DNA from: a virus
Direction: 5' to 3' (one strand)
Virus record (IMG/VR): IMGVR_UViG_3300010371_000016
Coordinates: 1 to 44,629 of that record
Length of the DNA stretch: 44,629 nt
Below are positions 3,467-32,861 of this stretch, in pieces. Every line of letters starts with the position of its first letter. Position 1 is the first letter of the stretch. The translations under genes were made by a program, and so were the position numbers. The notes beneath the pieces were generated by a model. That model had not been told where the DNA came from, searched no databases, and worked only from the letters and a program-made list of their open reading frames with translations.

Positions 3467-3595
3467 GTACCGTGCAGTATAGTAATGAAAATAAATTGAA
3501 AATACTTTGAACTATTCTCGCCCGCTATTGTCTATCTATCTGTAACAAGCGAAACGTGCACGCTCATATGCACGATACGATTGGAGATTAAAAAC

Positions 3596-3898
3596 ATGAA
3601 CAACACGAATACGAAAGCGCGCTGCAAGGTGAACAATGTTGTGTACAAGTCAATTGTGACGATTGATTGGACCGATTGCACAATCGAAGATGTGCAGGCG
3701 TTAGCCAGTCAGAAGCTGGTGAATAAGGTGCAGACGGAGCAACGCGAAGCGGGTGTTGCGATCCCCGAGGCGTATACGATCAAGGCTGCCGGGTACAAGC
3801 AGGGAATGAGGAAGGCGGCCCAGACACCCGAACAGATCATCGCTTCTCTGTCGGAGGAACAGTTGATTGCACTGATGAAGTCTCGCGGTTTAATGTAA
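3596..3898 (+). CDS. Small protein (100 aa), first rightward gene; shared C-terminal tail family
   Basis: The ATG at 3596 lies 7 nt behind GGAGAT, which fixes the start over an earlier TTG at 3581. The protein has a short beta strand (KSIVTIDWTD), a helix (IEDVQALASQKLVNKVQ), a basic GYKQGMRKA segment and a C-terminal tail (EQIIASLSEEQLIALMKSRG). The same order of elements appears in the 113-aa product of 10175-10516, and the tail recurs at the ends of two other proteins in this genome. It stands alone between the control region and a terminator, so it is probably made early and in quantity. Function unknown. Confidence 0.75.
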   Translation: MNNTNTKARCKVNNVVYKSIVTIDWTDCTIEDVQALASQKLVNKVQTEQREAGVAIPEAYTIKAAGYKQGMRKAAQTPEQIIASLSEEQLIALMKSRGLM

Positions 3899-4905: not shown

Positions 4906-5045
4906 TACAACCGAGCATTGCGAGGGACGCATACGCTTCCAATATAAGGTAACAAAAGATAAACAAAAGTAAATTGAACTTTTCACATGTTTGATTGTCT
5001 AACACTATGTATGACAACGATTGAAAATATTGAGAGGGGTAAGGC

Positions 5046-5297
5046 ATGCAACTTCCCGCAGCAGAACAGTTCACACTGTTTGTTACGAGGAACAATGGCC
5101 ACGTTCTCGTCAAATTGACATTGTTGAATGACCGCCCCTCCCTAGATTTCATACATACAGCCTTCCTACACATTGTGACGGAAATGTTAGAGAGGGTGGA
5201 GTTTCTGCCGGACGGGAGTGAAAGGTGTATAACTGTTACAGATATATTAACGTATATTATTTCTAAGAACCTACAATGGGCAGGATTGGAGGGTTGA
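5046..5297 (+). CDS. Hypothetical protein (83 aa)
   Basis: Preceded by GAGAGGGG about 5 nt before the ATG. A compact alpha/beta protein with one Cys (RCITVTDILTYIISKNLQWAG). No recognisable domain. The 140 nt before it hold no gene and only weak promoter-like sequences. Confidence 0.6.
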   Translation: MQLPAAEQFTLFVTRNNGHVLVKLTLLNDRPSLDFIHTAFLHIVTEMLERVEFLPDGSERCITVTDILTYIISKNLQWAGLEG

Positions 5298-9901: not shown

Positions 9902-9917
9902 GACACCGAGTATAAAT

Positions 9918-9995
9918 ATGACCTACACGCAATTCTGGCTCCTTATATTGACCGTGATTATTGTTAGAGTAATCTGGTTCACAGTAAAGCGATGA
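9918..9995 (+). CDS. Possible single-helix membrane peptide (25 aa)
   Basis: MTYTQFWLLILTVIIVRVIW followed by FTVKR and a stop. It would be one transmembrane helix with a basic end. There is no clear ribosome-binding site, so the gene is doubtful. Confidence 0.3.
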   Translation: MTYTQFWLLILTVIIVRVIWFTVKR

Positions 9996-10005
9996 TAGAA
10001 AAAGC

Positions 10006-10034
10006 TTGACGTGCACGAGAAGAACAGATAATAT
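10006..10034 (+). promoter_or_regulatory. Sigma-70-type promoter
   Basis: TTGACG (10006-10011), 17-bp spacer, TAATAT (10029-10034). It would give a leader of about 135 nt before the gene at 10175. The leader can fold into two hairpins: CCTGT/ACAGG flanked by GCCT/AGGC at about 10098-10125, and CCTTCA-ttg-TGAAGG at about 10133-10147. Confidence 0.6.
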
Positions 10035-10174
10035 AACAACACGATTAAACGATTGACTGGAAATATTCCCCACGAAACAAAGCAAAGAAAGTTTCGCCTC
10101 TCCTGTCCTTAATACAGGTAGGCATAACCGCCATCCTTCATTGTGAAGGGGGCACAACAGCAGAGGAAAATGTA

Positions 10175-10516
10175 ATGGATATCAAGGCAAAAAGTAAGGA
10201 ACTGGCGGAGCCGATTATCGTTCAGTTTGACGTTCCTGATACGTTGAAGGCGTTGGTTGCAAAGTATGGTGAGGAGACGGTGCATGAATTGGCAGTGGCA
10301 GAGATTTGCCGTGCCATTCGTAACCTCACCCTCGTGAACAAGGCGAAGCCTCTTGCAGAAATCCAAGGTTTCGTTGATGGTTGGCAGCCTGGCGTTCGTC
10401 GTGCTCGTACCACCAAGACTCCCCTTGAGCGTGCATCAGCAGCGTTGTCCAGCATGTCCGCCGAAGACTTGGCAGCGTTGTTGGAGAAGGTTAAGGCTGC
10501 GAGGAAGTCCGCGTAA
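10175..10516 (+). CDS. Small basic protein (113 aa), divergent paralogue of the first rightward gene
   Basis: Element order matches the 3596-3898 product: a strand (PIIVQFDVPD), a helix (EETVHELAVAEICRAIRN), a Gly-x-x-x-Gly-x-Arg basic segment (GWQPGVRRARTTK) and the tail (ASAALSSMSAEDLAALLEKV). It has its own promoter and structured leader, and codon use is cleaner than in its neighbours, so it is probably abundant. Mixed charge with a basic end suggests DNA or RNA binding, for example a nucleoid-like protein. That is inference; the family is not one I can name. Confidence 0.75.
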   Translation: MDIKAKSKELAEPIIVQFDVPDTLKALVAKYGEETVHELAVAEICRAIRNLTLVNKAKPLAEIQGFVDGWQPGVRRARTTKTPLERASAALSSMSAEDLAALLEKVKAARKSA

Positions 10517-10529
10517 GGAAAGAAGTCTG

Positions 10530-10553
10530 CCTAACGTATCCCCCTGCGTTAGG
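10530..10553 (+). terminator. Hairpin after the 113-aa gene
   Basis: CCTAACG (10530-10536) pairs with CGTTAGG (10547-10553). No T run immediately follows; possibly a transcript-end or processing structure. Confidence 0.4.
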
Positions 10554-10751
10554 TGATGAAGGCGCTGGCATACCGCCGCTTTATTTCCCCTGATAGAGTA
10601 TGTATGCCCTTTGTGATATACCTTACTGAGGTGTAACTGAAACATGAGATTGACCCCGAGAAAGAATTCGAGTAGTCAAGGGTTGACAGGTATCCCAGTA
10701 AGTAAGGTGCATCACAAAGAAACTTAACGATAAAAAGACGAGAGAAAAACG

Positions 10752-11060
10752 ATGGGAAAGAAGGTATATATTCTTGCCGACGGTGGTCATGATTACAGTG
10801 ATGCGGAACGCTTCGGTACCCTTATTCACTTGACGGTGCCAACAAATGCAAAGTGGGATATTGCCGCCGTATTTGATTCCCTCAAGGAAGGTTTGAAGGA
10901 TGCCGAACATGACGATTATATTGTTGTGTCCCACCTGACTAGTGTCTGTTGTGTTGCCACCGCCATCATGGTTGAGTGGTTTGGCCGTGTCAACTTTCTT
11001 ATATACAGGTTTGATAAGTATGAGGAGAAGAATCTCCTACTTGATAACCTACCTGAGTAA
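10752..11060 (+). CDS. Conserved phage hypothetical protein (102 aa)
   Basis: The opening 'KVYILADGGHDYSDAERFG' and the middle 'DDYIVVSHLTSVCCVATAIM' match a phage protein family with the pattern 'VY.L..G.HDYS.AE.FG...DYI....LTS+C..A..I', which is widespread and has no known function to my knowledge. It looks like a Rossmann-like alpha/beta fold. It directly precedes the tRNA gene. Confidence 0.75.
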   Translation: MGKKVYILADGGHDYSDAERFGTLIHLTVPTNAKWDIAAVFDSLKEGLKDAEHDDYIVVSHLTSVCCVATAIMVEWFGRVNFLIYRFDKYEEKNLLLDNLPE

Positions 11061-14383: not shown

Positions 14384-15196
14384 ATGGATTCCACCAACAA
14401 CTTAGATACGAAGGATTGGTATGTTGCCGATTGCCTATTATTAGATGCACAGAATCTTGTAAAAGAATTTCACTACGCGAAGGGAGGAAGCACCAGTGCA
14501 ATTTACACACACGGATTATTCAGAAAGTGTGATAGTTTCCTCATGGGAATTGCTTGGTGGACACCTCCTACAAAAGACACCGCTCTCACTGTCAACGCAA
14601 GCGATTGGAGACGAGTCCTCAACCTATCTCGATTGGTTATCCGACCGGAGGCCCCAAGAAATGCTGCCTCCTTTTTGCTCGGAAAAAGTATCAAGATAAT
14701 TAAGAAAGATAAGAGGTTTGTAAGCCTAGTGACATTCGCCGATGAGGCACAAGGACATAGTGGGGGAATATACAAAGCAACCAATTGGCTTTATATGGGA
14801 CGTGTTGGTCCTCACGCAAGATGGATAGACCCCCGAACAGAACGGCAAGTAAGTAATGCACACAAGAATAGTACCGTTATGTATTCGATGGGTTATGTAA
14901 GGATGAAATCCTTCTACAAGCATAAATTTATTTTCCACCTTACCAAAAGTAACGGAGATAAGAAGGTGAGTCAATTAATTGATCTAGTTACACCTATAGA
15001 AAATCAGACGGACGAAGAATTACTGAAAAGATTGGACGACCTAAGGAATAGAAGGGAGGTAGTAAAGCCGGCAGCGAAGGCAAAAGTTGTGAAGGAGAAG
15101 AAAAAGGTACAAAAGAAAGCCGTCACTGTAGCGGAGAAACTCCTTGCCGATTTAACACCCGACCAACTTGCCATGCTACTGGAAGGATTGAAATGA
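14384..15196 (+). CDS. Mom-like DNA base-modifying acyltransferase (GNAT fold, 270 aa)
   Basis: Residues about 25-150 carry the signature I associate with phage Mu Mom and its relatives: 'FHYAKGGSTSAIYTHGLF' followed by LSRLVIRPEAPRNAASFLLG (81-100) and 'LVTFADEAQGHSGGIYKATNW' (115-135). Mom converts adenine to an N6-carbamoylmethyl derivative that blocks restriction enzymes. The region 205-245 is a Lys-rich linker, and the last 25 residues (AEKLLADLTPDQLAMLLEGL) match the tail of three other phage proteins. Start supported by GAGGT 7 nt upstream. Fold is likely; the exact modification is inferred. Confidence 0.72.
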   Translation: MDSTNNLDTKDWYVADCLLLDAQNLVKEFHYAKGGSTSAIYTHGLFRKCDSFLMGIAWWTPPTKDTALTVNASDWRRVLNLSRLVIRPEAPRNAASFLLGKSIKIIKKDKRFVSLVTFADEAQGHSGGIYKATNWLYMGRVGPHARWIDPRTERQVSNAHKNSTVMYSMGYVRMKSFYKHKFIFHLTKSNGDKKVSQLIDLVTPIENQTDEELLKRLDDLRNRREVVKPAAKAKVVKEKKKVQKKAVTVAEKLLADLTPDQLAMLLEGLK

Positions 15197-15399
15197 CTGT
15201 ATACGTACCAACAACACCTGCAGGAACTCCTGTACCATATGGTGCCGGCGCTTTAATGGGAAAGAAAATAGCCGCTAAGACTAGGGAGAAGGCAATTGAA
15301 AACCTCCTAAAGGATGCAGTACATATGCCTTATAAGACTTGGGAAAATTTTGAAAAGCGCGGTTACACAATACAGGAATATCCTGATGGCTCATTTTGA
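15193..15399 (+). CDS. Conserved phage hypothetical protein (68 aa)
   Basis: ATGA overlap with the Mom-like gene. 'TPAGTPVPYGAGALMGKKIAAKTREKAIENLLKDAVHMPYKTWENF..RGY' is a pattern I have seen in small phage proteins. Coupling to the Mom-like gene suggests a related role, for example control of modification, which is inference. Confidence 0.65.
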   Translation: MTVYVPTTPAGTPVPYGAGALMGKKIAAKTREKAIENLLKDAVHMPYKTWENFEKRGYTIQEYPDGSF

Positions 15400-15409
15400 G
15401 GGGAAAGTT

Positions 15410-16642
15410 GTGAAAGATAAATTGAAGATGATAAAGGTAACCGACATTATTGTTGATACCCGTTACCGTGTTGACCTCGGTAATATTGAGGAACTTCAGG
15501 AGAGTATTCGTGAAAAAGGTATACTCCAACCAATCACATTATCCTCAGACCTTCATCTATTGGCTGGCGGTCGCCGTTACACAGCTTGTGTGGCTTTGGG
15601 CATTGTAGAAATTCCTGCATTACTTCGTGTAATTGAAGGTGAGGTAGATGCTCGTGAAATTGAGTTGATTGAAAATATTCACCGCAAAGAATTCACCTGG
15701 CAAGAACAAGCCAAGTTAATTGCCCGAATACACACCCTTTACAGTGAGAAGGAAATTAATTGGACGGGGAGGAAAACAGCCGAGTTGATCGACAAAACAC
15801 CGATGACTGTTAGCCGTGCCATCCGACTTGCTGCTGGTATGGAAGTCCTCCCCTCTCTTGAACAGTGTAAGACGGCAGACGAAGCCAGCACAGTTATTAA
15901 GAAGGCGGAGGAAGATAGCATCGTACAGGAATTGGCTAGACGTCAATCAGCAAAGGTACAACAACATGAAAACAATCCTGCCAGTACCCAAAAAGAAAAG
16001 GGTATGGCCGCCACACTTCGATGTGCCTCCGATAATTATGTAATTGGGGATGCCTTCAAACATATGGAGCATATGAAGGTAAATGGTCACATCAACCTAA
16101 TAGAATGTGATGCTCCCTTTGAGTGTGCCAATGAGAAATTGACGAAGGAACTTTATAGAATAGCCGGAAAGGATAGCTGGTTGTTATATTGGTTCCCTCA
16201 CGAACGTTACATTGAAACCTACTCCGACCTCATTAGTGCTGATTGGAAGGTAGACCCAACACCATTTGTATGGTATCAAAATGGCGGTACAAATGTGAAG
16301 GACCCAGCCATGCTGAGTCACAATCATGATACCCTCTTCGTATGTAGGAAAGGATCAGTAAAATTAGCAAGGCAAGGGAGTATGAATACCGTCCTTTGCA
16401 GTGATGATAAACCTTCTTACCATCCGCAACAACGTCCCCTATCATTGATAAAAACCCTTCTCTCCATCTTCCTTGATGATATGCAATTTGTTTTTGTTCC
16501 CTTTTGCGGGAGTGGTGTTACTTTGAGGGCATGTTACGAACAAGGTTTGCAGGTATTGGGAGTTGAGATAAGCCCCGATTACAAAAGCAAGTTTCTTTTG
16601 ACCGTTGAGGAAGATACGAAAAAACTACTCGCGAAACAATAA
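15410..16642 (+). CDS. ParB-like nuclease domain / DNA methyltransferase fusion (410 aa)
   Basis: GTG at 15410 behind GAGGGG; an in-frame ATG upstream (15386) would overlap the previous gene. Residues 9-90 form a ParB/sulfiredoxin-like domain (IIVDTRYR, GGRRYTA at 53-59, IELIENIHRKEFTW), followed by a helix-turn-helix (about 117-142). A linker leads to a methyltransferase-like domain with the catalytic loop replaced as DAPF (234-237; usual DPPY/F) and the AdoMet loop as VPFCGSGVTLRAC (363-375; usual DPFxGSG). Such ParB-MTase fusions are common in phages. The altered motifs leave activity open; target base unknown. Confidence 0.8.
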   Translation: MKDKLKMIKVTDIIVDTRYRVDLGNIEELQESIREKGILQPITLSSDLHLLAGGRRYTACVALGIVEIPALLRVIEGEVDAREIELIENIHRKEFTWQEQAKLIARIHTLYSEKEINWTGRKTAELIDKTPMTVSRAIRLAAGMEVLPSLEQCKTADEASTVIKKAEEDSIVQELARRQSAKVQQHENNPASTQKEKGMAATLRCASDNYVIGDAFKHMEHMKVNGHINLIECDAPFECANEKLTKELYRIAGKDSWLLYWFPHERYIETYSDLISADWKVDPTPFVWYQNGGTNVKDPAMLSHNHDTLFVCRKGSVKLARQGSMNTVLCSDDKPSYHPQQRPLSLIKTLLSIFLDDMQFVFVPFCGSGVTLRACYEQGLQVLGVEISPDYKSKFLLTVEEDTKKLLAKQ

Positions 16643-16848: not shown

Positions 16849-16860
16849 TTGGAGTTCGCA

Positions 16861-17862
16861 ATGTTCCTCCCAGAGCAAGGTAAGATAGATGTTCCTCCTT
16901 ATGGAAATGAAAGGAGTAAGATTGCCATTGTCGGTGATTTCAGTAGTGGTTTTGATGTTCGCAACCGTAGACCCTTTAGCGGCCCCGACGGGAAAGTCCT
17001 AGAAGATTGCCTTCACCATGCTGGATTGATTCGAGGTGAGGTGTACATGACCAACCTCATGAAGTGTCGTTCGGATAACAGGCAATTATTTTTTGATGAG
17101 AAAAAGACAACCTTCACAGAAAGGGGTATGGAGTATGTACGCCTTTTACAAGCAGAAATGTCGGAAGTTGAGGCAAACATTATTATATCCTGCGGACCCG
17201 CCGCTTTTGCAGCTCTTTGCAGCCTTTCCCGCCTATCCCTTTATCGAGGATATGTATTCCCCTCCACACTTCTCCCTAGCAGGAAAGTAATTCCCACCTT
17301 CCATCCCTTTAATGCTTTGAGGGGTATGTATACGTACAGGTACATGATCGCAGCAGACTTCGGAAAGGCAAAGGAAGAGAGTAAATATCCCGAGTTGAGA
17401 AGGCCTGAGAGGCAACTCGTATACCACCATGATACAATACAAGATGCCCTTGATTGGTTATCCTTTTACGAGGAACAAACAATTGTGGGGTTCGATATTG
17501 AGGTAATCAATTATGAGGTATCCTGCATCAGTTTTAGTTCGTCACCGGAGCTTGCCTGTGTCATTCCAATATCAGAAAGATGGAACTTAGAGGAAGAATT
17601 TCAAATATGGAGAGGTATTCAGAGGGTACTTGGTAATCCTTCAAGTACGAAGGTCATACAAAATAGTATGTTTGATGTCCCCTTCCTGCTCACCCGAAAT
17701 GGTATTACGGTACGTGGTGAGATACATGACACAATGATTGCTCATTCAATTATGTTTCCTGAGCTGCAAAAGGGTCTTGGATTCCTCGGTAGTATCTACT
17801 GCGGCAGTCAAGAGTATTGGAAAGATACTGTTAAATTTAAGAACATAAAGGATGAATCCTAA
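16861..17862 (+). CDS. Uracil-DNA glycosylase-like domain fused to the N-terminal part of a 3'-5' exonuclease (333 aa)
   Basis: Start at ATG 16861 behind TTGGAG. Residues 20-170 resemble family 4/5 UDGs: IVGDFSSG...RRPFSGPDGKVLEDCL, a TNLMKCR strand (64-70), and the C-terminal TFHPF (146-150; usual HPS). Residues 205-320 are a DnaQ-fold proofreading exonuclease: Exo I FDIE (211-214), Exo II NSMFD (268-272), HDTM (289-292) and KGLGFL. Exo III, the YxxxD motif, is missing: it lies at the start of the polymerase gene (18249). The UDG could monitor uracil at the fork, but the altered motifs may mean it only binds. The gene ends within GATGAATC, repeated at 18258. Confidence 0.85.
   Translation: MFLPEQGKIDVPPYGNERSKIAIVGDFSSGFDVRNRRPFSGPDGKVLEDCLHHAGLIRGEVYMTNLMKCRSDNRQLFFDEKKTTFTERGMEYVRLLQAEMSEVEANIIISCGPAAFAALCSLSRLSLYRGYVFPSTLLPSRKVIPTFHPFNALRGMYTYRYMIAADFGKAKEESKYPELRRPERQLVYHHDTIQDALDWLSFYEEQTIVGFDIEVINYEVSCISFSSSPELACVIPISERWNLEEEFQIWRGIQRVLGNPSSTKVIQNSMFDVPFLLTRNGITVRGEIHDTMIAHSIMFPELQKGLGFLGSIYCGSQEYWKDTVKFKNIKDES
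17851..17858 (+). repeat. GATGAATC direct repeat, left copy
   Basis: In-frame Asp-Glu-Ser codons at the end of the exonuclease gene. The identical octamer at 18258-18265 encodes the same residues at the start of the polymerase. Confidence 0.7.
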
Positions 17863-18028: not shown

Positions 18029-18262
18029 ATGATACCCATGAAAAATCCAAACCCGACAAGGGATATTGAGATACGTCTAGGAAATTTCAACACCTATACT
18101 TTCCTCCTATCAGAAGGGGAAATAACAATATATGAGAGCCTTCCCTTTGTAGAATACGAGGCATGCCTTAAGGAGAGTATCCATTACCTGGATGAACTGC
18201 ACGAAGTGAAACCTCTCCTCTGCCATACGAAACACTTTGGAGGTTACTATGAAAATGGATGA
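18029..18262 (+). CDS. Hypothetical protein (77 aa) inside the split polymerase
   Basis: ATG 2 nt after the previous stop. Acidic, alpha/beta (IEIRLGNFNTYTFLLSEGEI, then YEACLKESIHYLDELHEVK). Its stop codon lies within the first codons of the polymerase gene, so translation is coupled. Not recognised; may be a small partner of the polymerase or cargo of the insertion. Confidence 0.6.
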   Translation: MIPMKNPNPTRDIEIRLGNFNTYTFLLSEGEITIYESLPFVEYEACLKESIHYLDELHEVKPLLCHTKHFGGYYENG

Positions 18263-19787
18263 ATCTTTTTTAAGGTACAGTGCCCTTGATAGTGCCTGTA
18301 TGATTGAGATGCATAACAAATTTTGGCCTATGCTTTCCAATGGTTATGAAGCAACCTACAAGATGACAATGGATCTCCTTCCTGTATTGACCTTCATGCA
18401 AACCAAGGGGGTAAAAGTTAATCACCTGTTGATGGCGGATACGAAGAGGGAGGTATTGGAGAGTGCTGCCGATAAACAGAGGGAATTAGATGAACTGGTA
18501 GGCCACCCCTTGAATGTGAGTAGCAGCAAGGCCTGCGCTAGCTACTTCTATATTGAAATGGGTTTGCCTGCAATCATGTCTCCTAAGACAAAGAAGGTAA
18601 CAACCGATGACATGGCAATGCAAAGGCTTGTCCGAGGAACTGCCAAACAATCAGGACTTCGTCAGGCAAAACTTGTGCAAGAAATTCGTGGGTTACAGAA
18701 GCTCTACGGTACATATCTCGACATTAATTTTGATGAGGATGACCGTCTGCGGGGAGCATACAACCCTCGAGGTACTAAATTCGGTCGGTTATCCAGTAGT
18801 AAAACTGTATTCGGCACTGGAATGAATTTCCAAAACCTCCCACAGGACTTCAAAAAGTTTCTTGTTGCTGATGATGATTATGTGTTAATTGAGGTAGATA
18901 AAAAACAGGCAGAGTGGGTTGTAGTTGCCTACTTTGGTAATGATGCAAATATGATTACTGCCATTAAGGCAGGTGTTGATGTGCATTGTCATACCGCCTC
19001 CCTCATGTTTGGCCTTCCTGTTGAAATAGTTGAATATGAGGATGATATTGTAGGTCATGCAACCAGCGCAGATGCAATCCATAAGTTGCGTATGGAGGAT
19101 GAAGTCCTCAATAGGTTATACACAAGGGAATGGCCTCGTAGTATGTCCCTTCGACAGTGTGGTAAGAAATCTAATCACGGCCTTAATTACGATGAGCGTT
19201 ATCGTAACTTTGCCTTGATAAATGAAATGGAGGAGTCGGAGGCAAAACGAATCATTAACCTTTACCATGAAATCTATCCCGGTATTCGTCAAGGATATGA
19301 AGTAGTGAAGAGGCAATTACAGAAAGACCGTACCTTGACAAATTGTTTCGGTAGGCGTGTTCGATTTATGGGAGAATGGGGAGATGACCTTTGGAAATCT
19401 GCCTACAGCATGATCCCTCAATCAACAGTTGTAGACAGCCTGAACCAAGGAATGGTTCGTATATACAATGATGAATACATTACAAGAGAATTAAATGTAG
19501 ATATACTGGCACAAGTCCACGATAGTATCTTGATACAGGTACCAATCAAGGTTGTGAAGGACAAAGAAAAATATGAAAACCTGATGCACCGCATCTACGA
19601 TTATGTTAGCCCAACCATAACCTACAATGGTAATGAATTCAAAATTGCAACTGATGCAAAGTGTGGTTTAAATTGGGGAGGTATGCATAAGCAATATAAT
19701 AAACAAGGCATGCAAAAACTAAAAGAACATGCCGATATAATCAACCTCCTTGCAACAAGGGAAACGCATGGCACGGGAACTCACTAA
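18249..19787 (+). CDS. DNA polymerase, family A, carrying the last exonuclease motif (512 aa)
   Basis: ATG at 18249 behind a strong GGAGG (5-nt spacing), so it is translated independently. It begins with RYSALDSA, the Exo III YxxxD motif (Y10, D14) that belongs to the exonuclease on the preceding gene. Polymerase motifs follow: GRLSSS (179-184), motif A LIEVDKKQAEW with D217, motif B RQCGKKSNHGLNYD (302-315) and motif C QVHDS with H424/D425. The palm, fingers and thumb are therefore complete. Proofreading would require association of the two polypeptides. Followed by the helicase gene with a 20-nt overlap. Confidence 0.92.
   Translation: MKMDESFLRYSALDSACMIEMHNKFWPMLSNGYEATYKMTMDLLPVLTFMQTKGVKVNHLLMADTKREVLESAADKQRELDELVGHPLNVSSSKACASYFYIEMGLPAIMSPKTKKVTTDDMAMQRLVRGTAKQSGLRQAKLVQEIRGLQKLYGTYLDINFDEDDRLRGAYNPRGTKFGRLSSSKTVFGTGMNFQNLPQDFKKFLVADDDYVLIEVDKKQAEWVVVAYFGNDANMITAIKAGVDVHCHTASLMFGLPVEIVEYEDDIVGHATSADAIHKLRMEDEVLNRLYTREWPRSMSLRQCGKKSNHGLNYDERYRNFALINEMEESEAKRIINLYHEIYPGIRQGYEVVKRQLQKDRTLTNCFGRRVRFMGEWGDDLWKSAYSMIPQSTVVDSLNQGMVRIYNDEYITRELNVDILAQVHDSILIQVPIKVVKDKEKYENLMHRIYDYVSPTITYNGNEFKIATDAKCGLNWGGMHKQYNKQGMQKLKEHADIINLLATRETHGTGTH
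18258..18265 (+). repeat. GATGAATC direct repeat, right copy
   Basis: Matches 17851-17858. Removing 17851-18257 (407 nt) would join the exonuclease and polymerase into one continuous frame of 839 residues. Confidence 0.7.
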
Positions 19788-22877: not shown

Positions 22878-23299
22878 GCCATTGTCTCCGTACCCGAGGC
22901 TGATACAATTGTATACTTTGCGGGAGAGGTTGTCAAGGTTATACCTCCCTTCCCGTTCGTTGTATAGGCGCCTGTTGGTGTACCCGCAACCTCTACCTGC
23001 GTGACTGTCACCGCATAGAGGCCACAACCCAATTTAAAAAATTTATTAATTCCATCCCCCTGCCCAAGAGATACATTAGTGTAGGTATAGATGGCGGCAG
23101 GTGCTGGTTGTACCCAAGGCGCTGTCTGGTTATCTGGCACACCTCTAACAAAGTCTTGTGTTTGCCTTGGTTCATTATGTTTCGGATGAACATAGTAACC
23201 CTGCCAATTGCGTACAAGGTCACTTGCCTTCGCCTTAAAGCCACATTGGAAACAAACGGTATTCCAATCACCAAGGCGTAAAAAGTCTGCACGTCCCAT
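22874..23299 (-). CDS. Conserved structural or assembly protein with zinc-ribbon-like start (141 aa)
   Basis: ATG at 23299 lies 6 nt behind GGAGG. 'CFQCGFKAKASDLVRNWQGYYVHPKHNEPRQTQDFVRGVPDNQTAPW' is a widespread phage segment in which a CxxC pair is followed by 'W.G..V...H...R..QDF.RG..D...PW'. The C-terminal half (TYTNVSLGQGDGINKFFKLG and on) is beta-rich. Situated between the ejection proteins and holin. Function unknown, virion association likely. Confidence 0.75.
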   Translation of the reverse strand: MGRADFLRLGDWNTVCFQCGFKAKASDLVRNWQGYYVHPKHNEPRQTQDFVRGVPDNQTAPWVQPAPAAIYTYTNVSLGQGDGINKFFKLGCGLYAVTVTQVEVAGTPTGAYTTNGKGGITLTTSPAKYTIVSASGTETMA

Positions 23300-26200
23300 C
23301 ACTCACCTCCCGACATTTTAAACATCCTTTCCTGAATCTTCCTGTTACGGCGTTGCAACATCGCCTCCCTCTTCGATTCAGGAGTCATACCATAGATGGG
23401 ATGTCCCAACATACTAGATATATCTGCGCCGATACCTCCCGTATTATTCTGCGACATGGAGAAGGGAGACATTGTTTCAAGGAGATTCTCTACACGATCC
23501 GTCGGTGTTTTAAGTGAAGGTGCATATCCTTTCGCAGAGAGGTATGCCTTCCCTGTTGCCTGTTGAGCAATGGCATGAATTGTTGGGGATAATTTATTAA
23601 GGAGTTCCTGCGCAGGGTCCATAACAAGGCGAGGAAAGTCGGAAAGTTCCTTCATCCAAGGAGTCTTTTGACCGTCCCCAAGATCAATCATAAATTTATC
23701 CTTATTCTCCATCATGGAATGTCCCGAAAACATCCAATTCAAGGCATTACCAAAAATGGTAGAATAAATAAGACTCTTCACCAACCAAGACCTGTGAAGA
23801 TCAACCGCATTCAAGGGATGTATTGGAGAGCCTTCTCCTTTCCCGAAAAGTGCCTTCGTCCAATGCATTGTGGTGGAGGTAAGCCATTCAGGAGCAAGCA
23901 TGATATTTTGAATGGCTCGACGCCCAGTCGGGGAGAAGGTTGACATAAGGAATGTTCTCATATATTTATTACTGACCTCATTCGCCATCCTTCGCCAATT
24001 CAAACTACCGAAAGATACAGAGGACATAGCAGCAGAGCGCCTCATTAATTCCTCATCGGTTGGCATAACCTTAGAGGGATCCTTCTCAATAGCCTTAATC
24101 CAGTTAGCCTTCAATTTCTCGAAATTAACATGTGTCGCCATACCCATCAAACCGCCACCCAAACGATTGAAGATGATATGTTGGTAAACATGGTCTATTG
24201 CGGCAGCCACCCTGGGCAATTTACCAAGGCCTGGAAAGAGTGCATTCAATTGAGACTCAAGGAACTTAAATCCCTCACCCATACTCCTTCCCATATCCTC
24301 CGTAAATCCAGCATTGTTGGACGGCACCTTCTGGCCTGTATCCAGAATCTTATCAACCATATCTCCTGGGTGTGGGTTTTTGATAGACTTCTGAAATTCA
24401 GTACTATTTGTTAATGCCTGAAGAGTTGTCTTAATGTTCCTGTAAGGGTTGAGGGACATACCTGTTTGAACATCGGCAAGAGTCTGCCCATGAAATAGGC
24501 TACCCATGAAGGCAATTCTTTTAAGTGCCGAATTGACAAACCCATAAGCGGCACCCATATGTGTTGGTGTATAGGAATCAAACATATGTGACATTTCTGC
24601 CACAATTGCGGGATGTACTGATAGGCCACGAAGGGCAGGATGATTAATTACTTGATAACCATAAGGTGCCCTTCCCGATTTAATTAGAAGTTTTCTTCCT
24701 TCAAGATCAGTAGCAACTTTAAGGGAATCAATGGCCACCTTAGTATGCATTGCCGCAAGCATTGACTTGTAGTAATCTGCAAAGGTATCTGCAAAGTTAT
24801 CATGCTTTAATTCCATACCTTTATCAAGTGCCTGGGCAAGTGTTATCCTCAACTTACGTGTCTTGGTGAAGGGGGAATTTGTATTAAGTGGAGTTGATTT
24901 CTGTTTATTGAAGGCATCCATGATTGCCTTATTCTTCTCCGTATTAGCAAACAAATGAGTTGTATAATTCTCCAACTCCTTCATTGACATACCAACAGCT
25001 TTCGCCATTCCACGAATGTGAGCATAGAGAGCTTTGGCAGTCTCCTTCACCTTCTCCTGTGCGGGTGTCAATCGAATAGATGTATCACCCTCAAGGGAAT
25101 GGGCAATGTTGAGACTATCGGCACCTTGCAAGGCATGCATTTGTGCTTGTATATTCTCCGTATGCCGCTGTAATTTTCCAAGGCTTCCCTCCAACCTATC
25201 AAGAGTACCGCTTGCTTTTGGAAGTGTATCGGCAGATTTCACATCCCTATACACACGGGCAATGCCTTTGAAGGTAATGGCACCCGCACCAATGCCTGCG
25301 AGGGCACCATAGAAGGCATCCTTCACTTTATGATCCTGTCCTCCCAATGTATATCCAGCGAAGGCACCTGCCCCCAGCAAAGCTGCCCTCTTCATTTGGT
25401 CGAAGGTTGCAAAACCTCCCTGTTTCCTGAAGTTAGCTCCGTGTCCTCTCTTGATTGATTCTTCAATCATATCCCTACCACGATTTAGACGGCTACGGAT
25501 GGTACCAACAGGTACACCCTGCTCTGCTGCAATTTCTTCATATGACTTCCCTTCCATTTCGTAAGCCTTAATAGCCTCACGAATATCGGAGGGGAGTTTA
25601 GAGATTGCATGTTGTACCATGTTACTTGTTTGCCGAGCAATCATATGCTCTTCAGGTGTACCTTCCCCCGATTCAACATTTCTCGCCGTCTCCGTTACGT
25701 TGGAGACAGGTGCCCCGAATTGGTCATGGGTTGCACCATGGATACTCTCCGTAGGTACAGTCCTCCCTGACCTAGAAATTTCATTCAAACCAGTATTATG
25801 AAGAATAGTATGCATCCATGTATAGAAGGAACTATCCCCTTTAAAGGTACCCGCCTTCAGGTGCATAATTGCCTTATGAAAGACATACATGGCGAGGTCT
25901 TCGGCATCCATGCCGAGACGAGGACCAGCGACTCTCATAAGACCGCGGGCATTTCTAATCAAGCGGGGCATGTATTGTTTGTACAAGGCAGAAATGGCAC
26001 CTTGGTCGTTGTTGGCTGCCTTCTTCAATACCTCAGATTCATTGGGAAGTTTATCCTCCTTGAGAACCATACCACTCAACTTACCTTCATCATCCATCTC
26101 ACCTGTTTTTTGCAGGTGTTCAGAGATAGGCATTTCATGTGCTTGTAGGTGTGGAGATTGTTCCCTATTATATTCCACACGCTGTTCGGGAAATGCAATC

Positions 26201-29175
26201 TTTGTACTTACATGAGGGGCTAGTTCCCTCCTAGTAGTCTTATCAAAGTTAAGTCGATTTTGTACATTTACTGCCTGGGATTCCCCAGCAGACGCATTGT
26301 ACCTTCTCCTTGCCTCCTTCTTTATATTATCCACCGTATACTCAGTAGATAATTGTTTATCAATCCTATCAATAGATTCTCTATAATTCTTTACCTTAAT
26401 CTGATCTGGATTATTCTTCTGTAACTCTTCCCTAAGGAGTTTTTCAAGATAATCAGAATGATTAATTAAGTTATCTGCCTCCTCATTTAATTGAATAATA
26501 TGCCTACCGACATTATCCCCCTTCGGTAGACCCTCCACATGTTGCACCGCATGCATTAATTCATGCGCAATAATACTACGAGGGCGAAGTCCTGGATCCT
26601 TATATTTAATGGCAAGCTGTTCTAACTCACCTGGATTACTAATAGTGATGTTACCTGTTACTGGGTCGTAGTGTGCTCCAGGAGTACCCTCCTTAATATG
26701 TACCTTAATTGAATCCATCAATTTAGGATAATTACGGGCAAACTCATCATGTTTCATTACTTCACGTAGAGGTACTCCACTCTCCTTAGCCTTCTGCCAG
26801 ATAGGATCATTATGTGCCTTAAGAGACATGGCAGAATCATCAATTTCATGTAACCATTTACCACCAACAGCCCTATGATATCCAGTCGCAAGATTGATTT
26901 GTTCCGGGGTACGTCCCGCACTCTCCATACCCTCCGCAGCACGAACTAGGATTGGATTGAAGTCACGAGAAAAGGCACCGGCAAAGATAGCATGGTGACC
27001 AAACATAGTCATACCACCAAATAGTCCCTTAAATGTGCCCTCCTGCCGATGCCCCGGGCCAGCTTGGTAAGCACCATAGCCAGCAGCACCGAGTGTAAGG
27101 GCAGTGGCTGCAATGGCTCCTTTATTAATAGGACTAATATTCTTATCTGAAATGGTTTTATCAGAAGCACCAGCCACTGGCTGTCCTGTATCCTGCGCCG
27201 GCCTATTCCCCTGCCCATGCAATTGTTCTGGATGCCCCATATTATCATAAGGTTTTGTATCCAAATTTGCCGGAATATCCTCCGCAGTTGCTTTTATAGA
27301 ATCCTTAGCCACCTTAGCAATATGCGGCTTTAGTGAATCTTGATACACATTATGGTCGACCCCATACATACTCTCAACAAGGTGATTCTCCGAACGTGTT
27401 GCAATATCATGTGCTTCACCATAGGAAAGTCCTTTACCTGCACGCAGCTTAGTTTCTACCTCTGCCGGAAGATGTGAATAAGGACCCATCCTCTCCTTAA
27501 TTAGTTGCATTTGTGCATCACTTACGGGACCTGTAAGGTGCATGAGTGGATGTTCCACTGACTCATGATAGGCAACGGTCTGACGCACCGGCACCTGTAC
27601 TGTGCTGCCCGCCTTATCCTTCATATCAATATGTGTAGGTGTATCCTTTGAGATGTGAATTATGTTACCTTCAGCATCTACACCACCATAATAAGGGACA
27701 ACCTTAGTTGCATCAACGGGTGTTGTGGAAGGAAGGGGTTGCCCAGGCTCCCTTGCTGTAACGGGGCCTTTCTTCGGAGCCTCTCCTGTAGGTGTATCAG
27801 TATGCGTACGAGGTATATTTTCCTTACCAAGGGCACCCAAAGTACCACCAAGAACGGCCCCAGTAATACCGGCAGCTTGCGTATCCTTCTGACGAGAGAA
27901 TCCCTGTTCCTGTACCTGTTGCTGTTGAGATATAATAGAATTAATGCTCGCACCTGCACCAGCAGCACCTACAACATTTCCACCCTTTTGCAACTTAGCA
28001 AGTCGGGATGCATTTGCCTCCGCCTTATCAGCTACATTGCCATACACCTTAATATATTTATCTGCTTTCTCCAGGACAGATGCCTTATTGGCAACATTAT
28101 TGGTAGCAGCAAATTCCTTAATCTTCTGGGCAGAGGCAACAATCTCCCTCGCATCATTGGCTGCCTTGGTTGCTTTTACTAAATTTGTCCCATAAGTAAG
28201 AGTACCTAGTTTAGCCTCTGGAGCTACAAGGAATGCAGGGTCGGCAAAGGAAGTAATAGCATCCACGGGATTGTTTAGGATGGATTTAATACCCTCCTTA
28301 ACCTTCTCCATAGTAGACATGGTTTCTTGTTGCCTATAATCATTCAATACTTGTTTAGCTTGCCCAACCTGCGTAGGTGTATACCTATTGGGATGTGCAA
28401 CAATATCCTGTTGCTTCATTATTCCTTGTACGGATTGTTGCAACTTAGTTGCACTAAGATGAGGACTTGCCAAATCCTGTACTTGTTTAGATAAAAAAGA
28501 TTTATTCAATAGATAGCCGACTACAGAGGGATGAAGGTCCTTATCACCTGCACCGGATAAATCTTCCCCCTCCTTTGTTTTATAGGTGGGTGCAAAAGAG
28601 TAACCTGTAGGGCTATTCAGGTCAATTACAAGTGTGCCATCCAATGCTGCTTGACCTGGATTAATGCCACCAGCCTTCATAGCCAACATCTCCGAGGGAG
28701 TTACAGGCCTACTAGGTACTGTTTGATGATTGGCATGAAAATTGGAAAAATAATTGTGTACTCCTTCCAAGGTATCTGTTACGTCACCTACAGATTTACT
28801 ATAGTAATCCTTAGCACTCTCACCAACGGCCGACACAGCACTCTGTAAGGCAGTGTCAGAAGTGCCTTGATTACCCTCAACTTTTACGGGTGTTGGGATA
28901 GGACTGAAGTCATCCTCTGAATAAGTAGTAGGTGTGGTTGAGGCACCCGACATCTTAGCAAGAAGCCACTTCTGCGCCGCCTCCTGATTTGCTCCTGGGC
29001 CTCCTTCATTAGCCATAGCAGTTGCCTGCTTGGTCCAGGCAGTTATATCATCGTCGGATGCATCTACATTGTAATTTGTCTTTGGTAATTGTTCAGGTAC
29101 GTTGGGTGTAGGAGAAGTTGACGATGCTCCAACGGGACCAAAATCAGTATCCGAATATGTAATAGAATCAGACAT
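23299..29175 (-). CDS. Giant internal virion (ejection) protein with HExxH peptidase-like and embedded ECF sigma-factor domains (1958 aa)
   Basis: Polyvalent multi-domain protein, the last of three internal virion proteins. Residues 1-450 are low-complexity and helical. About 525-605 is a conserved phage domain (YHESVEHPLMHL, SYGEAHDIATRSENHLVE). About 735-1000 is a metallopeptidase-like domain with HELMH (871-875), E881 and GE.QAVNVQNR (964-973). About 1046-1245 is an ECF sigma factor: region 2 (LKKAANNDQGAISALYKQY... DAEDLAMYVFHKA... SSFYTWMHTI) and region 4 (LPSDIREAIKAYEMEGKSYEE, VPVGTIRSRLNRGRDMI). Gly-rich hydrophobic segments lie at about 435-450, 686-703 and 1264-1306 and may insert in membranes. 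The C-terminal third is helical. Probably ejected with DNA; the sigma domain would reach host RNA polymerase. Domain calls are by motif. Confidence 0.88.
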   Translation of the reverse strand: MSDSITYSDTDFGPVGASSTSPTPNVPEQLPKTNYNVDASDDDITAWTKQATAMANEGGPGANQEAAQKWLLAKMSGASTTPTTYSEDDFSPIPTPVKVEGNQGTSDTALQSAVSAVGESAKDYYSKSVGDVTDTLEGVHNYFSNFHANHQTVPSRPVTPSEMLAMKAGGINPGQAALDGTLVIDLNSPTGYSFAPTYKTKEGEDLSGAGDKDLHPSVVGYLLNKSFLSKQVQDLASPHLSATKLQQSVQGIMKQQDIVAHPNRYTPTQVGQAKQVLNDYRQQETMSTMEKVKEGIKSILNNPVDAITSFADPAFLVAPEAKLGTLTYGTNLVKATKAANDAREIVASAQKIKEFAATNNVANKASVLEKADKYIKVYGNVADKAEANASRLAKLQKGGNVVGAAGAGASINSIISQQQQVQEQGFSRQKDTQAAGITGAVLGGTLGALGKENIPRTHTDTPTGEAPKKGPVTAREPGQPLPSTTPVDATKVVPYYGGVDAEGNIIHISKDTPTHIDMKDKAGSTVQVPVRQTVAYHESVEHPLMHLTGPVSDAQMQLIKERMGPYSHLPAEVETKLRAGKGLSYGEAHDIATRSENHLVESMYGVDHNVYQDSLKPHIAKVAKDSIKATAEDIPANLDTKPYDNMGHPEQLHGQGNRPAQDTGQPVAGASDKTISDKNISPINKGAIAATALTLGAAGYGAYQAGPGHRQEGTFKGLFGGMTMFGHHAIFAGAFSRDFNPILVRAAEGMESAGRTPEQINLATGYHRAVGGKWLHEIDDSAMSLKAHNDPIWQKAKESGVPLREVMKHDEFARNYPKLMDSIKVHIKEGTPGAHYDPVTGNITISNPGELEQLAIKYKDPGLRPRSIIAHELMHAVQHVEGLPKGDNVGRHIIQLNEEADNLINHSDYLEKLLREELQKNNPDQIKVKNYRESIDRIDKQLSTEYTVDNIKKEARRRYNASAGESQAVNVQNRLNFDKTTRRELAPHVSTKIAFPEQRVEYNREQSPHLQAHEMPISEHLQKTGEMDDEGKLSGMVLKEDKLPNESEVLKKAANNDQGAISALYKQYMPRLIRNARGLMRVAGPRLGMDAEDLAMYVFHKAIMHLKAGTFKGDSSFYTWMHTILHNTGLNEISRSGRTVPTESIHGATHDQFGAPVSNVTETARNVESGEGTPEEHMIARQTSNMVQHAISKLPSDIREAIKAYEMEGKSYEEIAAEQGVPVGTIRSRLNRGRDMIEESIKRGHGANFRKQGGFATFDQMKRAALLGAGAFAGYTLGGQDHKVKDAFYGALAGIGAGAITFKGIARVYRDVKSADTLPKASGTLDRLEGSLGKLQRHTENIQAQMHALQGADSLNIAHSLEGDTSIRLTPAQEKVKETAKALYAHIRGMAKAVGMSMKELENYTTHLFANTEKNKAIMDAFNKQKSTPLNTNSPFTKTRKLRITLAQALDKGMELKHDNFADTFADYYKSMLAAMHTKVAIDSLKVATDLEGRKLLIKSGRAPYGYQVINHPALRGLSVHPAIVAEMSHMFDSYTPTHMGAAYGFVNSALKRIAFMGSLFHGQTLADVQTGMSLNPYRNIKTTLQALTNSTEFQKSIKNPHPGDMVDKILDTGQKVPSNNAGFTEDMGRSMGEGFKFLESQLNALFPGLGKLPRVAAAIDHVYQHIIFNRLGGGLMGMATHVNFEKLKANWIKAIEKDPSKVMPTDEELMRRSAAMSSVSFGSLNWRRMANEVSNKYMRTFLMSTFSPTGRRAIQNIMLAPEWLTSTTMHWTKALFGKGEGSPIHPLNAVDLHRSWLVKSLIYSTIFGNALNWMFSGHSMMENKDKFMIDLGDGQKTPWMKELSDFPRLVMDPAQELLNKLSPTIHAIAQQATGKAYLSAKGYAPSLKTPTDRVENLLETMSPFSMSQNNTGGIGADISSMLGHPIYGMTPESKREAMLQRRNRKIQERMFKMSGGE

Positions 29176-29227: not shown

Positions 29228-30544
29228 TCAAGGCTGAACCCAACCCTCCTTAGTCCACCTCATCGCAACCTTCTCCTTAGTCTTATTATTAATCATCTGA
29301 TATACCTTTCCTGGAATCCTATCAGATACATTCTTATGCAATTCAGGAGTAAGTGGGATTGGTTTATCGACGGTATCACCGAGGCCTGTAAAGGAGGCAG
29401 GTTTTGTACTTGTATCTGTGCCGAAGAACATTCCTGGAGAGGTAACAGTTGTAGGTTTAACAAGAGTTCCATTTGCAATAGCCCTCTGAGTTGCTTGTGC
29501 CACTGCCTGTGGATACGTAAGTGTCCTACTTTCATCCGAAGCAAGAATTTGCTTAGCCTCTGAGGCAATCTCTGTCAAGGCAGGAGTTACAAGATCCCTT
29601 GTACCACCAGAGGCAGATATATTAGTTCCTGAAAACATTGGATCATTAAGGTGTGAGGTACCATCAGCGCCATACAAAAGGTTGGCAACAATAGGCGCCG
29701 CCGACTTTAATTCCTCTGACGAGGGAGCTTTACTAACCGCACCTGCCTTTTTATTAGCTCCCTTCAATACAAGATCGGCAGAACGGTAGGCCTCCGTATT
29801 AGCATCCCTAATAGATGCCTGCCTCTCCTGAATACGATCGTGCATTTCTGTATTAGCAAGTCGCGCCTGTTCAATAGATTGAGTTGCCCTCTGTGCTGCC
29901 GTCATACCACTTTGTGCAATCTTCTGCATAATACCAGGTGTGTACTGAAGTTTAGCGAAATTCTGCCTTTCAATAGGTGAAGAATTAGGATCAGAAAGAA
30001 CCGACATCTTCAATTGCTGAAAGCCTTCAGGAGTATCAGGCAAGGTAGAGGCGGCAGTTGCTGTCATTCCGAAGTGTTTTTCTTGCCGAGTCAACTCAGC
30101 CGTCTGCATTGCAGATTGTTCCTGCTGCTGTTTGATTTGAGAACTCTGATAATTCGTAAGGTTAGATAGTGCTTCACTTGCACCTACCAAATCCCCATGT
30201 GACCTAGCAGAGGCAGCCAGTTGCGTGAAGAAGGAAACAGGATCATTCTGTTGCGCCTGTTGTTCAGCGGTAGGTTGTGCTGGTGGAGGTGGAGTACCGA
30301 GAGGTCTTCCATTGACAGGATCAATAATAGGAGTCGGTTTCGCAAGACTTCCCTTCATCATATCATCCATCTCTTGTTGCTGCCATTGTGCCTTCTGTGT
30401 ATTTTGGGCGGCAATTTGTTGAGCATTTTGAAGGGACAAGGCTTGCATTTGTTTAGCATAATCAATTTGATTTGCCTGATCCTGCCCTTGCAAGAATCCA
30501 GTACCAAAATTGGACCCTGCCTCTAATCCACTAAAAAGATTCAT
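29228..30544 (-). CDS. Internal virion protein (438 aa), helical and Gln-rich
   Basis: Starts on a TAATG overlap with the upstream gene. The N-terminal third is Gln/Ala-rich coiled coil (QANQIDYAKQMQALSLQNAQ), followed by a Pro-rich linker and long helices (for example QSIEQARLANTEMHDRIQER). No enzymatic motif. Together with its neighbours (188 aa and 1958 aa) it forms the ejection-protein set typical of podoviruses, which builds the internal core or the DNA channel through the host envelope. Role inferred from composition and order. Confidence 0.75.
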   Translation of the reverse strand: MNLFSGLEAGSNFGTGFLQGQDQANQIDYAKQMQALSLQNAQQIAAQNTQKAQWQQQEMDDMMKGSLAKPTPIIDPVNGRPLGTPPPPAQPTAEQQAQQNDPVSFFTQLAASARSHGDLVGASEALSNLTNYQSSQIKQQQEQSAMQTAELTRQEKHFGMTATAASTLPDTPEGFQQLKMSVLSDPNSSPIERQNFAKLQYTPGIMQKIAQSGMTAAQRATQSIEQARLANTEMHDRIQERQASIRDANTEAYRSADLVLKGANKKAGAVSKAPSSEELKSAAPIVANLLYGADGTSHLNDPMFSGTNISASGGTRDLVTPALTEIASEAKQILASDESRTLTYPQAVAQATQRAIANGTLVKPTTVTSPGMFFGTDTSTKPASFTGLGDTVDKPIPLTPELHKNVSDRIPGKVYQMINNKTKEKVAMRWTKEGWVQP

Positions 30545-31110
30545 TAGCTTAACCCCATAGAGGCATCAATTTGATTGAAGGAGGCTGTATTGTCTGTATA
30601 AGCAGCCTGCTGTTGTTCAGGAGACATTGTATCATTACCACCGCCGCTGTTATTCCAAGCAGTGATACCACGACCAACAAGATTACCGATGCCACCCCAC
30701 ATTGCATTACTCTGTTGCTGATTAGCAAGGGCTCCGGATGTTTGTGCCTGAGCCGCCTGCGCAGGAGATTGTGTAGCACCTGACAGCATAGCAAGATCAT
30801 TGAATTGTTGTTGGTAGGCATTACCTCCAGCATTGGCCGCAGCTACGAGTGCGTTACCACTACCTGTATAACCCTGTGCCGCCATAGTACGACTGGCTGC
30901 TTGTTGTTCTGCCAAACCATACCCACTGTCAACGGCAGATGAGGGATTCTTCATAAGGTCGTTGAGTTGTTGCGCTGCTGCAGGTCGATAAGAGGCATAG
31001 GGATCATAAGCACCACTACTAGCACTGCCACTGGCCTTACCTCCAGAGCCACCCATCAAAGCTCCTCCAACAACAGTAACTGCCGCTGCACCTACAAGTC
31101 CCCAAGTCAT
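30544..31110 (-). CDS. Internal virion / DNA pilot-like protein (188 aa)
   Basis: Starts with a hydrophobic Gly-rich helix (GLVGAAAVTVVGGALMGGSG), followed by 'YDPYASYRPAAAQQLNDLMKNPSSAVDSGYGLAEQQ' and 'AAQGYTGSGNALVAAANAGG', a signature of P22 gp7-like / pilot-type ejection proteins in podoviruses. The amphipathic, Ala/Gln-rich composition suits a protein that leaves the capsid with DNA. GGGAG ribosome-binding site; TAATG overlap with the upstream gene. Confidence 0.8.
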   Translation of the reverse strand: MTWGLVGAAAVTVVGGALMGGSGGKASGSASSGAYDPYASYRPAAAQQLNDLMKNPSSAVDSGYGLAEQQAASRTMAAQGYTGSGNALVAAANAGGNAYQQQFNDLAMLSGATQSPAQAAQAQTSGALANQQQSNAMWGGIGNLVGRGITAWNNSGGGNDTMSPEQQQAAYTDNTASFNQIDASMGLS

Positions 31111-31644: not shown

Positions 31645-32340
31645 TCAAGAATTTGGGAAGGGTGATGTAGGAGGAGTAAAAGCTGTTATATATCTAGCTA
31701 TTCCTTTAGTCACTCTAACCTCCGCTATATTTCCCGCAAAAGGTGTGGTACCATCCCCGGTCCCGCCTATTGTTAAAGGTTTACTCCCCCCAGAATATAA
31801 GGATCCTGAAAAGCCACTACCTGTTAATAAAGATACACCATCCAACCAACAAAATACATTGGTAACATTCCTACAAATTGCTAGATGATGAAATACATTC
31901 TGTGTGAACTGTGATCCAGAGGATAGAAGATTTAAATCCCAGCCAGAAGCGGCTAAAGACATTAATACTCCTATATTATTTCCGGTTGAATAAATCTCAA
32001 AAGCTCCATAGGTTGCAGCAGTAGATACTCGGGATAAAATAGCCGAGGTGGCGCTACCTGTACTATATACCCAACATTCTAAGGTAAAATCACCGGAACC
32101 AAAATCCCAATCCACATTGCTAGAAGATATAATTGAGGAGGAAGCTCCACTAAATAAGGCAGAACTACCATTAAATTTATAAATAGTAGTACTTGTTATA
32201 GCACTCCCAACAGCAGTAAATATATGACCTTTTATATCAGGAAAAGTTGTTCCACCATTACTACCATTCATATGAAGTAAGGCGGTTACGTAGGAAAAAT
32301 AAGGATCATGTGATCCCAGGCAACCTATAAGGGCGCTCAT
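31645..32340 (-). CDS. LamG / concanavalin A-like lectin domain tail protein (231 aa)
   Basis: ATG at 32340 overlaps the previous stop (ATGA); another ATG at 32352 would add four residues. Residues about 20-215 show the laminin-G-like pattern: 'LLHMNGSNGGTTFPD', 'KFNGSSALFSG', 'WDFGSGDFTLECWVYSTG', 'FHHLAICRNVTNVFCWLDGV' and 'PLTIGGTGDGTTPFAGNIAEVRVTKGIARY'. Such lectin-like folds at the tail bind surface sugars, so this is a good receptor-binding candidate. Confidence 0.8.
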   Translation of the reverse strand: MSALIGCLGSHDPYFSYVTALLHMNGSNGGTTFPDIKGHIFTAVGSAITSTTIYKFNGSSALFSGASSSIISSSNVDWDFGSGDFTLECWVYSTGSATSAILSRVSTAATYGAFEIYSTGNNIGVLMSLAASGWDLNLLSSGSQFTQNVFHHLAICRNVTNVFCWLDGVSLLTGSGFSGSLYSGGSKPLTIGGTGDGTTPFAGNIAEVRVTKGIARYITAFTPPTSPFPNS

Positions 32341-32861
32341 GGAATTACCCATTCATCAGTACCAATCTTTAATAAAGACCTAACACCATATTGAGATGCA
32401 GATGTTGCAGTACTCGGTACACGTAAAGTTACACCACTAATACCTACTACCGTTACAACACCTGCACCATACTGCATCCAATATATAGTTGTATTTATAG
32501 GAAAGGCTACACTACTATTAAGTGGAATAGTTAGGGTAATTGCAGATGCATTATTAAGGGATATAAGCTTATTCTGATCTCCTATTACGAGTGTGTATGT
32601 CGTACCGGTCTGTGTATTTATACCAGCAAAACCTAAGGAGTTATATAGATCGGTTTGACTAGATAATGTACCAGTAATAGTACCCCATATAGCAGTACCT
32701 GCTGCGGCAATAGGAATACCTCCAGCCGTTGATCCATCTCCAATATATGCTGTATTTAGGGTAGTGTCAAAACAAATCTCCCCTACCAGCAAAGTAACTG
32801 CCATTCGCTGGGTAGTTGTTCCCCTAGCTACCTGTATGGAACCTAAAAGAGTAAGGCTCAT
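32337..32861 (-). CDS. Tail fibre-type protein with major-tropism-determinant-like N-terminus (174 aa)
   Basis: 'LLGSIQVARGTTTQRMAVTLLVGEICFDTTLNTAYIGDGSTAGGIPI' is the phage tail repeat ('Q.RRGT..Q.....L..GE..YDT....+.iGDG.T.GG') that forms the shaft of many fibres and the N-terminus of Mtd. The remainder is beta-rich with a short receptor-proximal domain. Small for a fibre, it probably trimerises. Confidence 0.75.
   Translation of the reverse strand: MSLTLLGSIQVARGTTTQRMAVTLLVGEICFDTTLNTAYIGDGSTAGGIPIAAAGTAIWGTITGTLSSQTDLYNSLGFAGINTQTGTTYTLVIGDQNKLISLNNASAITLTIPLNSSVAFPINTTIYWMQYGAGVVTVVGISGVTLRVPSTATSASQYGVRSLLKIGTDEWVIP

Follow-up and report, generated by a model that had tools for sequence, protein, structure and literature searches.

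Our analysis points to a phage virion that injects an RpoE-like sigma factor directing host RNA polymerase to early phage promoters, a reading to which we assign a probability of roughly two in three. Under this mechanism, a 1958-aa protein would be packaged as the largest member of an ejection-protein trio in a podovirus-like phage and would carry an RpoE/AlgU-like sigma domain into the cell alongside the DNA. A zincin-like peptidase just upstream would perhaps free the sigma domain, which would then join the host core RNA polymerase. The polymerase would in turn be directed to two or more early promoters of the phage, of the form TTGAACTW-N12-ATTGTCTAW.

Genome layout and the giant late protein

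The window, by which we mean the whole stretch of 44,629 nucleotides analyzed here, is the 44.6-kb genome record of a phage. Both of its ends carry a 123-bp direct repeat, so the record probably represents a complete genome. The minus strand encodes the late genes (terminase, portal, head, head closure, tail, and lysozyme), and the plus strand encodes replication and other early genes. The portal matches the SU10 portal family. The DNA polymerase is split over two open reading frames (ORFs; 16849-17862 and 18237-19787, with ∼375 nt between them), which match positions 473-798 and 805-1240 of phrog_17; the polymerase of a relative is split likewise. A ParB-like domain fused to a DNA methyltransferase (15314-16642) and a Mom-like DNA modification protein (14384-15196) likely act in anti-restriction. 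At 31645-32861, a Laminin-G-like domain protein adjoins a second protein bearing a major tropism determinant N-terminal domain, and the two are probable receptor-binding proteins.

The 1958-aa ORF is placed in the late run, with tail genes on one side and the lysozyme gene on the other. Homologs were detected in two relatives: L002, an IMG/VR fragment, and L010, a phage contig of 44.5 kb that was binned with a Pseudomonadota metagenome-assembled genome (MAG; 3.4 Mb). The giant protein, its parts, and its two neighbors are as follows.

23299..29175, minus strand: giant polyvalent ejection-type protein (putative), 1958 aa, 0 Cys; homologs in L002 (2197 aa) and L010 (1946 aa) also 0 Cys
27196..27765, minus strand: conserved block, residues 471-660, HESVEH...YGEAHDIATRSEN; 90% identity to L002
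26818..26988, minus strand: LPD23 (large polyvalent protein associated domain 23), residues 730-786; Pfam PF18838 over cut-off
26206..26805, minus strand: zincin-like metallopeptidase region, residues 791-990, HELMH at 871-875; directly precedes the sigma domain
25762..26040, minus strand: sigma region 2, residues 1046-1138; Pfam PF04542 over cut-off; 87% identity in L002
25630..25761, minus strand: linker, residues 1139-1182; aligns with the sigma-E linker; 70% identity in L002
25441..25629, minus strand: sigma region 4, residues 1183-1245, with predicted −35 recognition helix VPVGTIRSRLNRGRDMI; PF08281; 92% identity in L002
29228..30544, minus strand: second ejection protein (probable), 438 aa, 0 Cys; position as N4 gp51
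30544..31110, minus strand: first ejection protein (probable), 188 aa, Ala/Gly/Gln-rich, 0 Cys; position as N4 gp52

The giant protein has the makeup of a polyvalent protein: LPD23 and sigma regions 2 and 4 reside in one large protein, and its gene shares strand and run with the terminase, portal, head, and tail genes, ahead of the lysozyme gene. PF18838 exceeded its cut-off in each of the three phages as well as in gp16 of Pseudomonas phage AF. These four phages also retain the HExxH motif of the zincin-like region, which is a candidate for release of the sigma domain; the match of this region to MPTase-PolyVal was below its cut-off, and the AlphaFold model of residues 461-1260 was too poor for a verdict on the zincin. 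The conserved block at residues 471-660 matched nothing in Pfam, PHROGs, or NCBIfam and may be a second metallopeptidase-like domain. In L002, whose giant gene lies at 4332-10925, ∼240 additional residues separate this block from LPD23; such an insert is as expected, since polyvalent proteins swap domains. No polymerase family in Pfam or PHROGs matched the giant protein. The PF00940 profile had no match in the window, and the control genomes were likewise without a match.

Cysteine is entirely absent from the giant protein, whereas ∼20 residues would be predicted from the remaining late genes (P ∼3e-9). It is likewise absent from the trio of L010, from the giant of L002, and from the partial giant of a further fragment, G383, and its two neighbors. 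As yardsticks we took the textbook ejection proteins of T7, N4, and P22: N4 gp50 (3500 aa), gp51, and gp52, T7 gp15 and gp16, and P22 gp7, gp20, and gp16 contain no cysteine, and T7 gp14 contains one. Cysteine-free structural proteins of other kinds exist (the N4 major head protein and gp57), and the mark is therefore strong for large proteins only. Position in the late operon, polyvalent domains, and the lack of cysteine together make a good case that the giant is a virion protein.

The RpoE-like sigma domain

The first-pass annotation had read an ECF-type sigma factor in residues 1046-1245 of the 1958-aa ORF. Sequence profiles confirmed this span, which maps exactly to 25441-26040 on the minus strand, as a full RpoE/AlgU-like ECF sigma factor with regions 2 and 4. 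The motifs quoted in support are all present (SALYKQYMP, DAEDLAMYVFHKA, SSFYTWMHTILHN, LPSDIREAI, SYEEIA, and the recognition helix), and the proposed order of the two regions with a linker between them was borne out by Pfam, NCBIfam, and PDB alignment, at a level that coincidence does not explain. In Pfam, Sigma70_r4_2 (PF08281; E=9.6e-13) and Sigma70_r2 (PF04542; E=2.7e-5) were both above the curated cut-off. In NCBIfam, the sigma70-ECF superfamily (TIGR02937) scored 76.9 bits (cut-off, 42.9), and RpoE_Sigma70 matched at E=1.2e-28, below its equivalog cut-off. PDB chains of sigma-E and AlgU matched at E ∼2e-21, spanning both regions. The FYTW motif of region 2 is the same as in RpoE, and alignment to sigma-E showed that regions 1.1 and 3 are absent, with a 44-residue linker alone between regions 2 and 4.

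Structure prediction agreed with this assignment. Foldseek searches with the AlphaFold model returned E. coli sigma-E and P. aeruginosa AlgU as top matches (probability 1.00), and the region 4 model superposed on E. coli sigma-E region 4 with −35 DNA (2h27) at an rmsd of 1.5-2.0 Å. Confidence in the sigma-domain model was moderate (mean pLDDT, 61; pTM, 0.40), so the mutual placement of regions 2 and 4 is unreliable. A separate nested sigma gene was also considered and rejected: neither the window nor L010 offers a nearby internal start equipped with a ribosome-binding site, and L002 has one weak candidate internal start, within region 2 only.

The same fusion occurs at the same position in L002 and L010; with two independent relatives sharing it, it is no artifact of assembly. 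Identity to L002 is 85% in the sigma domain, with a dN/dS of ∼0.08 (dS being close to saturation), versus 30% and a dN/dS of 0.35 in the C-terminal 700 residues; selection therefore maintains the sigma domain as a protein. The first-pass annotation had asked whether homologous phages conserve the domain with its key residues. The fusion is indeed kept, under strong purifying selection, but a conserved pair in region 2.2 is replaced.

The closest bacterial relatives of the domain are RpoE factors (33-41% identity), and an RpoE-like relative was present in most Pseudomonadota genomes sampled, including the MAG carrying L010. Pattern searches for more relatives, using the whole protein, the sigma domain, and the head-closure protein, returned mostly one IMG/VR contig or none, and a search for prophage relatives in 274 genomes of the class of the MAG returned a single weak match besides the phage contig. 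Several candidate relatives were discarded: the Spartobacteria matches (L011-L019) proved to be normal-sized ORFs for ordinary ECF sigmas, the plasmid matches that were examined are RpoE-like sigmas, and a bacterial match in an 857-aa open frame is a normal RpoE with the open frame lying upstream.

The replaced pair is the Gln-Glu of region 2.2, which is near-invariant in ECF factors and reads Met-Tyr or Met-Gln in the three phages; in the 1958-aa protein it is M1096/Y1097. In sigma-70, this pair contacts the beta-prime clamp of RNA polymerase. Core binding by the phage domain may therefore be weak. The Gln was found in 30 of 32 compared sigmas; the two exceptions are crAss-phage sigmas, in which the pair is Ser-Met, and phage sigmas may therefore tolerate the replacement. 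Region 2 of the phage domain also contains small insertions, and all three phages have Val in place of a conserved Cys of RpoE (CPxGT, before the recognition helix), which was present in 29/29 bacterial RpoE sequences sampled. The first-pass annotation had named a missing sigma fold or missing core-binding residues as evidence against its reading: the fold was found, but the Gln-Glu pair was not. Given this replacement, we class the domain as RpoE-derived and sigma-like, a candidate rather than an established working sigma factor.

Sigma-E-type sites ahead of early genes

Entry of a sigma-E-like factor together with the DNA would lead one to expect sigma-E-like promoters before the early genes. 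A virion sigma of this kind had been proposed to let the host polymerase read phage promoters from the first moment of infection, and predicted sites of the sigma-E type do precede early genes in three phages. Those of the window are listed below with the genes behind them.

3507..3535, plus strand: predicted early promoter 1, RpoE/AlgU type, TTGAACTA-N12-ATTGTCTAT; 60 nt upstream of start codon 3596
3596..3898, plus strand: first early gene, 100 aa; kept in relatives
4974..5002, plus strand: predicted early promoter 2, RpoE/AlgU type, TTGAACTT-N12-ATTGTCTAA; 43 nt upstream of start codon 5046
5046..5297, plus strand: early gene behind promoter 2, 83 aa

We scanned with the consensus GGAACTT, a gap of 14-16 nt, and GTCTAA or GTCTGA (maximum score, 13). 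The top-scoring site in each of the two genomes, the window and the L010 contig, was orthologous and lay upstream of an early gene (promoter 2; TGAACTT-N15-GTCTAA, 12/13). A second conserved site, TGAACTA-N15-GTCTAT, precedes the first early gene; this promoter 1 is orthologous in the contig of L010 and in G383. Both sites in both phages share TTGAACTW-N12-ATTGTCTAW at 17/17 positions, their spacers having diverged, and the next best extended-motif score was 13 in the window and 14 in the relative. When the consensus letters were permuted, a result at least as good (two or more conserved intergenic sites, the best scoring 12 or more) arose in 2/3000 cases, intergenic DNA being defined by a hand-made gene list. 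The extended motif had zero copies in 17.9 Mb of Markov sequences, and the 3.4-Mb MAG contained no exact copies beyond the phage contig. In G383, which was located via an unrelated motif, two exact copies and one with a single mismatch lie on the early strand before small genes, and their leaders have ACGATTGGAG or a variant in common. The sigma-E-type sites surfaced only after we allowed the GTCTAA form and compared the genome of the relative; a strict promoter search with TCTGA as the −10 element gave nothing above shuffles.

The published AlgU consensus is GAACTT-N16/17-TCtgA (PMC3819740; PMC10651043), and Shewanella RpoE promoters, such as that of rpoH, read GAACTT-N16-TCTAT (PMC4336711). 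The phage sites, GAACTT-N16-TCTAA and GAACTA-N16-TCTAT, agree with these published promoters in both sequence and spacing. The sigma fusion is thus present in three phages and the predicted promoter set in three, with both together in two (the window and the L010 contig), because L002 is without an early region and G383 ends within its giant gene.

The control regions contain other repeats. A 15-bp palindrome, GTAACAAWTTGTTAC, occurs at eight sites where none is expected (3996, 5746, 9887, 13751, 21395, 29189, 36727, and 42637; six exact and two with one mismatch), all intergenic or at gene ends. Matching places hold eight sites in the relative and five in G383, and exact copies in the 3.4-Mb MAG are confined to the phage contig. 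A ATTATAAT box often lies 7-8 nt to the left of the palindrome, and the copy at 29189 just precedes the start codon of the giant gene. The palindrome was rejected as the promoter of the sigma: the orientation of the AT-rich box follows the genome, not transcription. It was therefore set aside as a separate element, possibly an operator or a middle/late promoter element. The divergent early/late control region (3390-3500) contains three inverted repeats like ATACTGNACGGTTCAGTAT, kept in the relative, which are candidate repressor or activator sites.

Alternative readings and known systems

The main rival to an injected, promoter-reading sigma is that host RpoE, induced by envelope damage on entry, reads the early promoters, the phage domain doing something else, such as titrating the anti-sigma factor RseA/MucA and thereby freeing host RpoE. 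The phage promoters match the host RpoE/AlgU consensus itself, RpoE-like factors are widespread in the sampled Pseudomonadota genomes and encoded by the MAG with L010, and the core-binding residues of region 2.2 are altered, all as this rival would have it. However, strong purifying selection has preserved the −35 recognition helix nearly letter-perfect, something an anti-sigma decoy would not require, and the phage promoters have in common an extended motif beyond the host consensus. We regard host RpoE as an unlikely reader of these promoters.

Gene order also raises the possibility that the domain is an ordinary late sigma, abundant late in infection as the product of a late-operon gene and active in the producing cell before packaging, its presence in the virion being incidental. 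Yet the candidate promoters are all confined to the early strand of the early region, with none before late genes, and the cysteine purge fits ejection; a late role thus seems highly improbable. Loss of the region 2.2 Gln-Glu, together with the small insertions in region 2, would suit a sigma relic that has lost RNA polymerase binding and serves as a DNA-binding or packaging module of the ejection protein. Such a relic sits poorly with regions 2 and 4 at 87-92% identity, against a C-terminal part drifting to 30%, and with the presence of matching promoters, and we give it very little credence. We infer instead that the ejected domain itself reads the early promoters. Because this sigma would arrive from outside, it would be free of host anti-sigma at entry, and it is fairly probable that an ejection-protein sigma with dedicated early promoters redirects the host polymerase before phage expression, beyond anti-sigma reach.

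We rate the proposed virion sigma as a new tool in a known strategy, that of injected transcription starters. The virion RNA polymerase of N4 is injected and starts early transcription at few early promoters (PMC4496689). The trio described here resembles N4 gp50/51/52 in being cysteine free, in gene order, and in rising size (188, 438, and 1958 aa here versus 150, 644, and 3500 aa in N4). In contrast, N4 carries a whole T7-like polymerase that uses hairpin promoters, whereas a sigma alone was found here and the host enzyme would be needed. A role in starting transcription once the phage has entered has been predicted for polyvalent proteins (Iyer et al. 2017; PMC5512222). As the main text of that survey presents them, they resemble the giant in being large and multidomain, in combining LPD23 with a candidate zincin-like region, and in lying beside virion genes, but the same main text contains 0 mentions of sigma factors, and none of its examples has a sigma domain.

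Among sigma factors, the phage domain resembles RpoE/AlgU ECF factors in the order of regions 2 and 4, the FYTW motif, the GT-RSR helix, and the promoter type (GAACTT-N16-TCTAA), but it lies within a giant late protein, contains no cysteine, has lost the Gln-Glu pair, and has insertions in region 2. Podoviruses phiEco32 and SU10 also encode an ECF sigma (gp36/CDS32); theirs, however, is a small, separate middle gene associated with middle/late promoters (tAATGTATAtA). A single sigma peptide was reported from an SU10 particle preparation, not within an ejection protein (PMC4281155). The crAss-phage RNA polymerase sigmas likewise are phage sigmas without the region 2.2 Gln, but they are encoded by separate genes (∼180 aa) outside virion proteins. 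Pseudomonas phage AF gp16 (2213 aa) is a cysteine-free late giant with LPD23 and HExxH that adjoins internal virion protein genes; unlike the giant described here, it is without a sigma domain. The literature searched, which took in a minority of subscription papers, yielded no precedent for an injected or virion sigma factor, in keeping with the earlier remark that no described phage is known to inject one within an ejection protein.

This reading yields exact predictions, namely, two promoters at named coordinates and one 200-residue domain. Cysteine loss may offer a sequence screen for ejected proteins and could uncover other injected domains. Known phage strategies include injecting a polymerase, as N4 does, or enzymes that modify the polymerase, such as T4 Alt; many phages also produce sigma factors after infection. 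A virion-delivered sigma, if true, would be a third and more economical way to start an infection, one that makes immediate use of the host enzyme.
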